Below, one piece after another: positions 44,765 to 50,148 of a stretch of DNA of 50,148 bases (within the stretch, counting starts at the first letter, position 1; each line of letters opens with the position of its first letter). The position numbers and the translations under genes are program-made. The notes beneath the pieces are model-generated. The model was not told the origin of the DNA and made no database searches. It worked only from the letters and a program-made list of their open reading frames with translations. Source of the DNA: Zetaproteobacteria bacterium (GTDB lineage: Bacteria; Pseudomonadota; Zetaproteobacteria; Mariprofundales; Mariprofundaceae); contig JAJRTF010000092.1 of assembly GCA_021545585.1 (NCBI GenBank), forward strand, positions 1 through 50,148, given 5' to 3'.

Positions 44765-44858
44765 AAAGAAAAAGCCCGGCGGATTTCTCCACCGGGCGGA
44801 TACAGAATCTTTCGATTCTTTATTGTAGTAACGGCTCTCACCCCGGATAACTACAATC
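44765..44858 (-). ncRNA. tracrRNA (type II-C)
   Basis: Minus strand ATTGTAGTTATCCGGGGTGAGAGCCGTTACTACAAT (44857-44822) is an anti-repeat to the array; followed by hairpin GAATC-GAAA-GATTC (44818-44805) and terminator hairpin GCCCGGTGGA-GAAA-TCCGCCGGGC (44797-44774) plus TTTTTCTTT. Confidence 0.9.
44774..44797 (-). terminator. tracrRNA terminal hairpin
   Basis: 10-bp stem with GAAA loop followed by TTTTTCTTT on the minus strand. Confidence 0.85.
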
Positions 44859-44865
44859 AGGTGTA

Positions 44866-44894
44866 AACGTAGGAGGAAGCCCTATGGCAGTCAA
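44866..44894 (-). promoter_or_regulatory. Putative tracrRNA promoter
   Basis: Minus strand TTGACT (44894-44889), 17-nt spacer, TACGTT (44871-44866); predicted start near 44858, the anti-repeat boundary. Confidence 0.4.
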
Positions 44895-47800
44895 GCAAAG
44901 TTCATCAGAGAAATTTGTATTTGGTCTCGATATTGGTATCGCTTCGGTGGGGTGGGCAGTGCTTGGAGAAAATCGCATCGTTGATCTCGGAGTGCGGTGT
45001 TTTGACAAGGCAGAGACAGCGAAAGAGGGCGAATCACTGAATCTGTCGCGGCGTATGGCGAGGCTTGCGCGGCGCCGTTTGCGTCGTCGGGCATGGCGGC
45101 TTACGAAGCTGGCTCGATTGTTGAAGCGAGAATGGCTGATCCCCGATGTTGAAACCCTCAAGCGTCCGCCGGAAAAGGGATTCAAAACGCCCAACCTTTG
45201 GCGCCTGCGGGTGGAAGCGCTTGACCGGCAACTGAGTAATGAAGAGTGGGCGCGAGTGATTTATCACCTTTGCAAGCATCGCGGTTTTCACTGGGTCAGT
45301 AAGGCGGAAGCCAAAGCAGCCGATAACGATAAGGAAGGCGGCAAAGTCAAACAGGGGCTAGCTGAAACAAAGCGGCTGATGCAGGAGAAAAACTATCGCA
45401 CAGCTGCCGAGATGGTGCTCAAGGAGTTTCCCGAAGCCCAACGCAATAAACAGGGCGATTACAGCAAGGCTCTTTCCCGTGAATTGCTGGGAGACGAGTT
45501 AAAGGAACTATTCAGCAAACAACGGGTTTTCGGCAACCCGCATGCGGATAAAACACTGGAAACCAAGATTCTCGGCAGCGGCGATAAAAAGAGTGGTCTC
45601 TTCTGGTCGCAAAAACCGGCGATTTCAGGGGAAGCCCTACTTAAAATGCTGGGACACTGTACTTTCGAGAAAAGCGAATACCGCGCACCCAAAGCCAGCT
45701 TTACTGCCGAGCGTCATGTGCTGCTTACGCGCATTAACAATTTACGCATCGTGGAAAATGGCTCGATTCGCAAATTAAATGATGAAGAAAGGCGAATTGC
45801 CATCTGGCATCCCTATCAGCAGGCCGGTGATTTCACCTACAAACAACTTGGCAGCGCACTGGTAAAAGCTGGACACTTGGAAAAGGATGGATACAGGTTT
45901 GCAGGGCTGTCCTACCCGAGTGAGCGCCAAAGGGTTGAGGAAAAGGTCAAAAATCCGGAAACAGCAGCGATTGTAAAACTACCGGCATGGCAGGCGTTAC
46001 GAAAAACGCTCGTAAGCGCAGGGTTGGAGGCCGAATGGAGGCTGATGGCTGATGCAGCGTTGGAAGGGCAACCGGATTTGCTTGATAGCATTGCATGGAC
46101 GCTTTCCGTGTACAAGGAAGATGATGAAGTGGAACGTGAACTCGATAAGCTCGAACTTCCTAACAAGGAGAAAATGATTGACGCCTTACAGCTTATTCGC
46201 TTCGACAAGTTCAGCAACCTGTCGCTTGCAGCATTACGCAAGATTGTGCCGGAAATGGAAAAGGGCCTTCGCTACGATGAAGCCTGCGTAGAAGCTGAAT
46301 ACCATCATAGCCTGCCCGATCCGATTGGTGACGCTGCCAAGGCAAAGTACCTGCCATCCTTCTATGCAGGCCGGGATAAGGACGGGCGTTTGATTTTCAA
46401 CGAGGAGATGGATATTCCGCGCAATCCGGTGGTGCTTCGGGCGCTGAATCAGTCGCGCAAGGTGGTGAATGCCCTGATCCGAAAATATGGCCCGCCGCAT
46501 GCGGCGCATATCGAAATGGCGCGGGACTTGTCCCGTCCAATCGATGAACGAAGAAAGATTGAACGAGCACAGGCGGATTACCGGACGAGAAACGAAAAAG
46601 CTCGGGCAGATTTCGCCAGGGAATTCGGATTTGAACCTAAAGGAAAGCAGTTCGAGAAATACATGCTCTATCGGGAGCAGCAGGGCAAGTGCGCCTATTC
46701 GCTTGAAGCTCTTGATCTCAATCGTGTGCTGAACGATCAGGGCTATGCCGAGGTCGATCATGCTTTGCCTTATTCACGCAGTTTTGACGACAGCAAGAAC
46801 AACAGGGTGTTGGTGCTAACCAACGAAAATCGTAACAAAGGAAACCGGACGCCGTATGAATACCTAGATGGCATAAGCGATAGTGAACAATGGCGTCTGT
46901 TTGAGGCCTTTGTGAATGGAAACAAGGTATACAGGCAGGCCAAGCGTAATCGCTTGCTTAAAAAGGATTTCGGTGAATCAGAAGCGAAGGGCTTCAGAGA
47001 GCGCAATCTCAATGACACCCGTTACATCTGCCGTTTTTTCAAGAACTATGTGGAGCAATACCTGCAACTTCATGAAGACAGCGATGCCAAACGTTGTGTG
47101 GTTGTGAGCGGTCAGCTTACTTCATTACTTCGTTTCCGCTGGGGTATCAACAAGGTTCGCAGTGAAAGCGACCGGCATCATGCACTGGATGCAGCAGTAG
47201 TGGCGGCATGCAGTCATGGCATGGTTAAACGCATGTCGGATTATTCCCGGCGAAAAGAGTTGCAAAACGTCCGCGAGCATATCGAAAAGGTCGATTCCAA
47301 AACCGGCGAAATACTCAATCATTTTCCGATGCCCTGGAATCATTTCCGGCAGGAGCTTCTTGCCCGCCTTAATATCGACAACCTGGATGAACTGAGAGCT
47401 GTGGCTGAGAATCTGGGCACCTATCCACAGGAAGATATAGAGGCGCTAAGGCCGCTTTTTGTATCCCGGGCTCCGCAGCGGCGCAACAGCGGCGCGGCAC
47501 ATAAAGAGACGATCTATGGTCAGCCGGAAGCGCTAAAGGAAAAAGGAAGCGTGACACAGAAAGTAGCCGTTACCAGCCTCAAGCCTGCCGATGTGGACAA
47601 GCTGATTGATCAACATCGCAACAAAAAGCTCTACGATTATCTTCGCTCATGGCTGGAAGGCAAGGATGCACGGGAGAAACGGGCAAAAGCCATTGAGGCT
47701 GGAGCCGGGCGGGGCAAGGATAAGCGAGAGCTGACTGCGGAAGAGAAGGCCGAGATTGCCAGATTGCGTGCCCTGCCGAGGAAGCCGGATAAGCAGGGCA

Positions 47801-48363
47801 ATCCTACGGGCCCTGTTGTTCGCACCGTTACGATGGTGATAGACAAGCTCTCCGGCATTCCGGTGCGTGGTGGTGTTGCCAAAAATGACACCATGCTGCG
47901 GGTGGATGTATTCCGCCATAAAACAAACAAAAAGTTCCATATTGTGCCGGTCTATGTGCATCACGCCGTAACAGGGCTTCCCAACAAGGCGATTGTGGCC
48001 TTCAAGAATGAAGAAAAATGGACAGAGATGGATGAAAACTACGCATTTCTTTTTTCACTGTACTCAAATGATTTGGTTCAAATTACGCATAAGAGTGGTG
48101 AAACAATGATGGGGTATTATCGTAGCTGCCATAGTGGTACTGGTACAGTGAGCATCGCATTACATGACCGGCTCGCATTTGGTGATAAAACAACAAGCAA
48201 GCGACTGTTTGAGAAAAACCCAAACAAGGTTCTGCCGAATGATAAGCGAGGGTTGATAGAAGGCATTGGCGTTAAAACCGCTGCTAATGTTGAAAAATAT
48301 AACGTCGATGTGCTAGGCAATATCTATCCGGCCCCACCGGAGACTAGGCGTGAGCTGGCGTAG
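44884..48363 (+). CDS. cas9: CRISPR-associated endonuclease Cas9, type II-C
   Basis: 1159 aa; RuvC-I FGLDIGIASVGWAV (D16), Arg-rich bridge helix ARLARRRLRRRAWRLTKLARLL, RuvC-II HIEMARD (E544), HNH VDHALPYSRSFDDSKNNRVLVLTNENRNKGNRTPYE (H626), RuvC-III HHALDA; AGGAGG 7 nt before the ATG. Confidence 0.98.
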   Translation: MAVKQSSSEKFVFGLDIGIASVGWAVLGENRIVDLGVRCFDKAETAKEGESLNLSRRMARLARRRLRRRAWRLTKLARLLKREWLIPDVETLKRPPEKGFKTPNLWRLRVEALDRQLSNEEWARVIYHLCKHRGFHWVSKAEAKAADNDKEGGKVKQGLAETKRLMQEKNYRTAAEMVLKEFPEAQRNKQGDYSKALSRELLGDELKELFSKQRVFGNPHADKTLETKILGSGDKKSGLFWSQKPAISGEALLKMLGHCTFEKSEYRAPKASFTAERHVLLTRINNLRIVENGSIRKLNDEERRIAIWHPYQQAGDFTYKQLGSALVKAGHLEKDGYRFAGLSYPSERQRVEEKVKNPETAAIVKLPAWQALRKTLVSAGLEAEWRLMADAALEGQPDLLDSIAWTLSVYKEDDEVERELDKLELPNKEKMIDALQLIRFDKFSNLSLAALRKIVPEMEKGLRYDEACVEAEYHHSLPDPIGDAAKAKYLPSFYAGRDKDGRLIFNEEMDIPRNPVVLRALNQSRKVVNALIRKYGPPHAAHIEMARDLSRPIDERRKIERAQADYRTRNEKARADFAREFGFEPKGKQFEKYMLYREQQGKCAYSLEALDLNRVLNDQGYAEVDHALPYSRSFDDSKNNRVLVLTNENRNKGNRTPYEYLDGISDSEQWRLFEAFVNGNKVYRQAKRNRLLKKDFGESEAKGFRERNLNDTRYICRFFKNYVEQYLQLHEDSDAKRCVVVSGQLTSLLRFRWGINKVRSESDRHHALDAAVVAACSHGMVKRMSDYSRRKELQNVREHIEKVDSKTGEILNHFPMPWNHFRQELLARLNIDNLDELRAVAENLGTYPQEDIEALRPLFVSRAPQRRNSGAAHKETIYGQPEALKEKGSVTQKVAVTSLKPADVDKLIDQHRNKKLYDYLRSWLEGKDAREKRAKAIEAGAGRGKDKRELTAEEKAEIARLRALPRKPDKQGNPTGPVVRTVTMVIDKLSGIPVRGGVAKNDTMLRVDVFRHKTNKKFHIVPVYVHHAVTGLPNKAIVAFKNEEKWTEMDENYAFLFSLYSNDLVQITHKSGETMMGYYRSCHSGTGTVSIALHDRLAFGDKTTSKRLFEKNPNKVLPNDKRGLIEGIGVKTAANVEKYNVDVLGNIYPAPPETRRELA

Positions 48364-49255
48364 CGTCGTTATCTCGCGCCCGGCCCGGTTGCAGCGTGAA
48401 AAGTTTTCGCTGCTAATCAGGCAGGAGCAATCGGTACGCGTTCCCTTCGAGGATATCGCCATCATTGTCCTCAATCACCGCGAAATCAGTCTCACCCACC
48501 CGGTTCTGTCAGCCTGCGGCGAGTATGGCATTAGCCTGTTTGCCACCGATGATACGTACCATCCAAATGGCGTGTTTCTGCCCTATCTTCAACATTCACG
48601 ATCCACCCGCATGTTGCGCAAGCAGCTTGCGCTTTCTCGCCCGCTTGCCAAGCAGACATGGGCGGCCATCGTGCGGCAGAAGATTGCCAATCAGGGTTTA
48701 TCTCTTGATTTGGCAGGTGCGGAAGGAGGAAAGAAGATGGCATCTTTTGTCCGGCAGGTTCGTTCCGGTGATTCCACCATGATGGAGAGTACGGCGGCAG
48801 CCTTCTATTTTAGCCGGCTATTCGGAAGCCATTTCCGGCGAAGCCAGTTGATCTGGCCGAATGCAGCGCTTAATTATGGTTATGCAATCTTGCGTGGCGC
48901 CATTGCGCGGGGCTTGGTTGCGCATGGTTTTTTCCCCTCTCTCGGCCTCCAGCATGCCAGCGAACAGAATGCTTTTAATCTTGCCGATGACATCATTGAG
49001 CCTTTCCGCCCTGTGATTGATCTTTATGTTGCATCACATCGAGATGATGATTTACGTGATTTAACGCCTGCCGACAAGGCAGCGCTGGTTTCGCTGCTCA
49101 ATGTCGATGTTGAAATGTCGCGTGGCAGGATGTCGGTGCTTTCCGCCATCGAACAGAGTATCGAGAGCCTGGCAAGGGTTCTGGAGCGGGGCAGTGAAAA
49201 GCTGCTTGAACTACCGGTACTTATCGAGCTTGAGCAGCACGTTGCTGAAAATTAA
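48350..49255 (+). CDS. cas1: CRISPR-associated endonuclease Cas1, type II
   Basis: [82 protein letters not shown] start overlapping the cas9 end by 14 nt. Confidence 0.96.
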
Positions 49256-49257
49256 CC

Positions 49258-49590
49258 ATGAGTTTGGCGACTCGGCGTTTTATGCGATTGATAGTCTTCT
49301 TTGACCTGCCGACGGTGACCAAGGCCGAAAAAAGAGCCTACACGCTGTTTCGTCGTTTCCTGCTTAACGATGGCTATGACATGCTGCAATGGTCGGTATA
49401 CGGGCGGGTGGTGAATGGCCTTGATGCCGAGAAAAAACACCTGAATCGACTGGAGGCGAACCTGCCCCCGGCCGGGTCGGTGCGAAGTCTGACTGTGACA
49501 GAAAAACAATTTGCCAGCATGAAAATGCTGGTTGGCAAGCCGAAAATTCAGGAAAAAAAGCTCAACAGCAATCAAATATTACTATTTTGA
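49258..49590 (+). CDS. cas2: CRISPR-associated protein Cas2
   Basis: [45 protein letters not shown]; 2 nt after cas1. Confidence 0.95.
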
Positions 49591-49605
49591 CATGCTTTTT
49601 TGAAT

Positions 49606-49644
49606 GCAAACCTTTGCCCCGCTGTAAGTGGGGCAAAGGTTTGC
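49606..49644. repeat. Perfect 15-bp inverted repeat between cas2 and the CRISPR array
   Basis: GCAAACCTTTGCCCC (49606-49620), 9-nt loop GCTGTAAGT, GGGGCAAAGGTTTGC (49630-49644). Confidence 0.95.
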
Positions 49645-49654
49645 GGGCCATGTA

Positions 49655-50086
49655 ATTGTAGCTATCCGGGGTGAGAGAGGGAACTACAACAGTAAACACA
49701 CCAACCAAGTAAAAAAAGCAATTGTAGCTATCCGGGGTGAGAGAGGGAACTACAACTCGATATCAAGCGCTGCGACAAATCCGCTGATTGTAGCTATCCG
49801 GGGTGAGAGAGGGAACTACAACCACCGTCCATCCGGCAGCCTTACGAATGGCATTGTAGCTATCCGGGGTGAGAGAGGGAACTACAACGGTCATTCTTGC
49901 AGAATATGTCTGTTATCAATTGTAGCTATCCGGGGTGAGAGAGGGAACTACAACACTACTCCACTTGTGAACAAACGTGCGCTTATTGTAGCTATCCGGG
50001 GTGAGAGAGGGAACTACAACCAGCAATCGGAAGAAATCAGAAGCGGTGCCATTGTAGCTATCCGGGGTGAGAGAGGGAACTACAAC
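49655..50086 (-). CRISPR. CRISPR array: 7 repeats of 36 bp, 6 spacers of 30 bp
   Basis: Plus-strand repeat ATTGTAGCTATCCGGGGTGAGAGAGGGAACTACAAC at 49655, 49721, 49787, 49853, 49919, 49985, 50051; crRNA sense inferred as minus strand from the tracrRNA. Confidence 0.97.
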
Positions 50087-50148
50087 ATAATATGCAGCAT
50101 AACGGGCTCACCAGCCAATTGGCTAGCTTCTCCCTCCGTAATGGTATG

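Follow-up and report, generated by a model that had tools for sequence, protein, structure and literature searches.

In type II CRISPR-Cas systems recovered from metagenomes, the tracrRNA lies upstream in 79.2% and runs in the reverse direction in 69.8%, which is the commonest arrangement (PMC10278012). Within a clade of Cas9 proteins, the place of the tracrRNA is conserved (PMC7606464). The tracrRNAs of that metagenomic set and of a catalogue for Cas9 orthologs were predicted by the logic used here (PMC10278012; PMC7606464). In the type II-C tracrRNA of Neisseria meningitidis 8013, an anti-repeat is followed by a short hairpin, a linker and a terminator hairpin. The same order was found in a contig of a Zetaproteobacteria bacterium (Mariprofundaceae; GenBank assembly GCA_021545585.1, contig JAJRTF010000092.1), of which a stretch of 50,148 nucleotides, hereafter the window, was analysed. 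The element on its minus strand, running from 44857 to about 44768 just upstream of cas9, almost certainly encodes the tracrRNA of a complete CRISPR-Cas9 locus of type II-C, similar in kind to that of N. meningitidis, judging from sequence and computed structure. The predicted RNA thus belongs to an already known kind of tracrRNA, that of the Nme-type II-C systems.

The cas operon and the CRISPR array

The predicted gene content is that of a complete type II-C system. The plus strand carries cas9 (44884..48363, 1159 aa; TIGR01865, E 5e-231), a type II cas1 (48350..49255; TIGR03639, E 3e-80) and cas2 (49258..49590; TIGR01573, E 7e-22), followed by the array, with no csn2, no cas4 and no other gene between. 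Residues D16, H626, N649 and D769 of Cas9 occupy the motif positions expected for the RuvC and HNH domains, and among solved structures it lies closest to II-C enzymes, Nme1Cas9 entries included. One such Cas9 is present in the assembly, a metagenome-assembled genome that comprises 1.75 Mb and is 87% complete. The array (49655..50086) has seven identical 36-nt repeats and six spacers of 30 nt; the crRNA strand is the minus strand, and the leader lies at the contig end. Against the Rfam family CRISPR-DR34 the repeat scores just below the gathering threshold. Between cas2 and the array, an inverted repeat with 18-bp arms that are 94% complementary (49606..49644, assigned to neither strand) is probably a two-way terminator common to the convergent cas operon and array.

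The far side of the array is flanked by cysK. A second array allele, at the end of another contig (C14; locus L009, 5580-5889), matches window positions 49560-50148 with identical leader and terminator flanks, and has three repeats with two different spacers against the seven repeats and six spacers of the window. The difference suggests that the assembly combines two strains and that spacer turnover is active, and the second allele places cysK on the leader side. An open frame of 173 codons (49628-50146, plus strand) runs across the array; each unit of repeat and spacer measures 66 nt, which is divisible by three, so the frame is a by-product and no gene. For eight spacers, joined by N, no protospacer match was found in collections of phages and plasmids. 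Exact PAM-proximal seeds of only three of them were found in viral contigs, with full-spacer identities of at most 25/30 and mostly 18-22; these were treated as chance matches, and no PAM was therefore inferred.

Promoters embedded in each CRISPR repeat have been described for N. meningitidis. In the window array (49655-50086, minus strand) and in the repeats of the related loci L011-L090 treated below, the 3' end of the crRNA-strand repeat keeps a -10-like TANNNT despite varying bases (TACAAT, TACACT, TACCAT, TACGAT, TATAAT), which is not kept in the matching part of the anti-repeat. This pattern fits putative promoters embedded in each repeat.

The tracrRNA gene and its pairing with the repeat

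Read on the minus strand from 44857 to 44769, the gene is ATTGTAGTTATCCGGGGTGAGAGCCGTTACTACAAT-AA-AGAATCGAAAGATTCT-GTATCC-GCCCGGTGGAGAAATCCGCCGGGC-TTTTT, with both a hairpin and a Rho-independent terminator 3' of the anti-repeat. The anti-repeat occupies 36 nt (44822..44857). It is followed by hairpin 1 (44804..44819; AGAAUC-GAAA-GAUUCU, 6 bp), by the linker GUAUCC (44798..44803) and by an intrinsic terminator (44769..44797; GCCCGGUGGA-GAAA-UCCGCCGGGC, then U5), which puts the predicted 3' end near 44768. The terminator hairpin itself, with 10 bp and a GAAA loop at 44797-44774 and then TTTTTCTTT, was also found independently. The size of about 90 nt agrees with the original prediction, which had described a complete minus-strand tracrRNA upstream of cas9 within 44765-44858. 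Strand and identity stand, and only the upstream border shifts, the first anti-repeat base being 44857 with 44858 one base upstream of it. The two GAAA hairpins described for the tail are likewise both present; the earlier description left out the 6-nt GTATCC linker between the terminator and hairpin 1, which reads AGAATC-GAAA-GATTCT over its 6 bp.

The anti-repeat was aligned position by position to the crRNA-strand repeat GTTGTAGTTCCCTCTCTCACCCCGGATAGCTACAAT. Among the 36 paired positions there are 30 Watson-Crick pairs, two G-U pairs (repeat positions 1 and 29) and four mismatches (positions 9, 10, 12 and 13, around an isolated C-G at 11), the same numbers as an earlier hand count. When repeat and anti-repeat were co-folded, a lower stem of 8 bp and an upper stem of 23 bp formed on either side of an internal loop that holds one isolated pair, which bears out the predicted division into a short lower stem, a bulge and a long upper stem. 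The duplex energy is -51.2 kcal/mol, far below that of 500 shuffled anti-repeats (mean -12.8, sd 3.3, minimum -24.1), and the tracrRNA by itself has a folding energy of -40.1 kcal/mol (z = -6.1). Among all other 36-nt sites of the window, those of the array excepted, the best match to the repeat reaches 21/36. A better anti-repeat encoded elsewhere would have weakened the assignment; this anti-repeat is the only one in the assembly, where a search for a second, at the stated completeness of 87%, found none.

The comparison with the Nme system was made against the published Nme1Cas9 sgRNA (PMC6594998). Over the bulge and lower stem (GAGAxCCGTTxCTACAATAA), the two sequences, GAGAACCGTTGCTACAATAA and GAGAGCCGTTACTACAATAA, are identical at 18/20 positions, so that the resemblance to the N. 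meningitidis tracrRNA proposed at first is borne out. The tail differs: it is 53 nt long including U5 in the window against 63 nt for the published sgRNA, the sequences of hairpin 1 and of the linker are not the same, with GUAUCC standing where Nme has a GCAACGCUCU stretch, and the terminators are also different. An Rfam search returned no tracrRNA family among its matches and no score above gathering for a tracrRNA model. The window repeat is identical at 28/36 positions to what we take to be the Nme repeat.

From these parts a course of events may be proposed. A sigma-70-type promoter across the cas9 start codon would give an RNA of about 90 nt from the minus strand, extending from the anti-repeat to the intrinsic terminator. 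Its anti-repeat would pair with the repeat portion of every crRNA, itself transcribed from that same strand in the array. The bulged duplex and hairpin 1, together with the GNANCC linker and the hairpin of the terminator, whose pairing and fold were computed, would form the scaffold for Cas9, with binding presumed by analogy to Nme1Cas9, and the loaded Cas9 would cut DNA matching a spacer.

Conservation across related cas9 loci

One genome per species was scanned for relatives, and the best 80 cas9 homologs were taken. Three of the 80 contigs begin at or inside cas9, leaving 77 testable loci, or 78 with the window. All 77 carry a homologous anti-repeat directly upstream of cas9, on the strand opposite to it. 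Hairpin 1 has at least 4 bp in 76/78 loci, the window included, the linker reads GNANCC in 77/78, and a terminator hairpin follows it in all; the size of the RNA ranges from roughly 78 to 112 nt across the family. Hairpin 1 and the terminator are retained with differing sequences, and hairpin 1 shows compensatory changes: AGAAUC/GAUUCU in the window is AGAGUC/GACUCU in L011 and AGAGCC/GGCUCU in L012. A hairpin-arm swap test is biased, the helices having been picked by folding, and is no proof alone. The outer, variable part of an anti-repeat agrees more closely with the local repeat than with the repeats at other loci (375/441 positions, compared with 267±15 after shuffling), a figure from which kinship is not removed and in which the loci are not independent.

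A displaced, degenerate repeat left over from an old array, with no functional RNA gene, might be expected to resemble the repeat as this element does (30/36), and stray repeats do occur near arrays. Yet the mismatches are confined to the bulge, where CCGTT is nearly identical across the family, and a hairpin and a terminator follow, all of them conserved with compensating changes at 77 other loci. A relic would not keep a conserved bulge, hairpin and terminator, which makes this origin extremely improbable. The element is better read as a tracrRNA gene, as its retention at every testable locus, its predicted pairing with the local repeat and its complete set of parts argue.

The beta-, gamma- and zetaproteobacterial II-C tracrRNAs of loci L011-L090 resemble that of the window in place, strand, anti-repeat core (UCCGGGGUGAGA..CCGUU..CUACAAUAA), hairpin 1, GNANCC linker and terminator. 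They differ from it in hairpin-arm sequence, hairpin length and the variable outer anti-repeat, and the corresponding Cas9 proteins are 52-76% identical. In Mariprofundus sp. UBA1536 (L012) the CRISPR repeat is identical to that of the window. The GNANCC linker (44798-44803, minus strand, in the window) is nearly invariant in the 78 loci while the flanking hairpins vary, and is possibly a contact for Cas9.

Among the 37 genomes searched in its family, that of the window counted in, close homologs of the window Cas9 turned up only in G000, G007 and G018, which makes the distribution of the system patchy. The cas9 of G018 agrees in position with that of L012 (Mariprofundus sp. UBA1536), which suggests a zetaproteobacterial origin for the window as well. 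Further members of this family (L110-L115, in genomes G030, G024, G031 and G012) carry far more distant Cas9 proteins with 26-43% identity and about 1040-1080 aa. Neither valS nor cysK was matched at five relative loci (L011, L012, L013, L015 and L018), and the cas cassette thus lies in other contexts there.

The predicted promoter and the start of cas9

The predicted tracrRNA promoter (44865..44893, minus strand) consists of a -35 TTGACT, a 17-nt spacer and a -10 TACGTT, with a predicted start near 44857. Inside it, on the plus strand, lie the Shine-Dalgarno-like AGGAGGA and the ATG start codon (44884) of cas9 (44871..44886). With 8/12 consensus bases this promoter is among the weaker examples in the family, and a plain consensus scan, in which it falls below threshold, did not list it. 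Across the 78 loci, a -10/-35 pair with at least 8/12 consensus bases on the tracrRNA strand and at the right distance is present in 85%, compared with 9% in shuffles, and a pair reaching 9/12 in 46%, compared with 2%. The geometry is shared: the -35 lies in the first cas9 codons, the spacer contains the start codon and usually the Shine-Dalgarno sequence too, and transcription is predicted to begin roughly where the anti-repeat does. In loci whose cas9 match starts from residue 1, about 19-27 nt separate the anti-repeat from the cas9 start.

The same evidence bears on whether the RNA could be read from the plus strand, as a scaRNA-like RNA or a cas9-leader RNA. A cas9 mRNA begun at an upstream promoter would cross this DNA, and scaRNAs have been reported for type II loci (PMC6199352; PMC13431127). 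Against such an RNA, the U-run after the terminator stem is on the minus strand only, the conserved promoter is that of the minus strand with no plus-strand promoter equally conserved, and a plus-strand transcript would carry the repeat sequence itself and so be unable to pair with crRNA in the manner of a tracrRNA. Apart from the array and the tracrRNA gene, no scaRNA-type element with partial similarity to the repeat was found. A plus-strand RNA is thus very improbable, and the minus-strand tracrRNA remains the preferred reading.

No plus-strand promoter for cas9 was convincingly located. Should the cas9 promoter be situated upstream of 44765, the leader of the cas9 mRNA would include the complete antisense of the tracrRNA. 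The tracrRNA and cas9 transcripts may hence interfere to some degree, since the tracrRNA promoter overlaps the ribosome-binding site of cas9 and a cas9 mRNA started upstream would be antisense to the whole tracrRNA. The predicted promoter, straddling the cas9 start codon across the family, suggests that expression of tracrRNA and Cas9 may be coupled, and this arrangement may be little described so far.

With the tracrRNA gene taken as genuine, the overlap could be a selected device in which tracrRNA transcription or antisense pairing lowers Cas9 when tracrRNA is abundant. The promoter over the start codon and Shine-Dalgarno sequence in most family loci, together with the gap of about 19-27 nt, would suit such a device, but the overlap may reflect mere compaction and the search for a cas9 promoter located none; we regard selection for this role as unlikely. 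A broader proposal for this II-C branch is that transcription of the tracrRNA acts directly on Cas9, fixing either its translation or the stability of its mRNA, with the tracrRNA promoter placed inside the cas9 start region and the cas9 mRNA passing in antisense across the tracrRNA gene; this proposal is doubtful to the same degree.

With the predicted RNA, a confident guide scaffold becomes available for a zetaproteobacterial Cas9 that seems not to have been studied before. The 78-locus comparison defines, by both sequence and structure, an RNA that is absent from Rfam; its marks are the conserved bulge, the GNANCC linker and a predicted promoter lying over the start of cas9. Apart from the scaffold, this family definition and the embedded promoter, the finding of a tracrRNA here is ordinary. 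The embedded promoter offers a testable idea about the balance of tracrRNA and Cas9, and is the sole part that is possibly of specialist interest. If the idea is true, a promoter at the start codon would adjust, from within the locus itself, the dosage of guide scaffold relative to nuclease, unlike the long-tracrRNA repressor of S. pyogenes.
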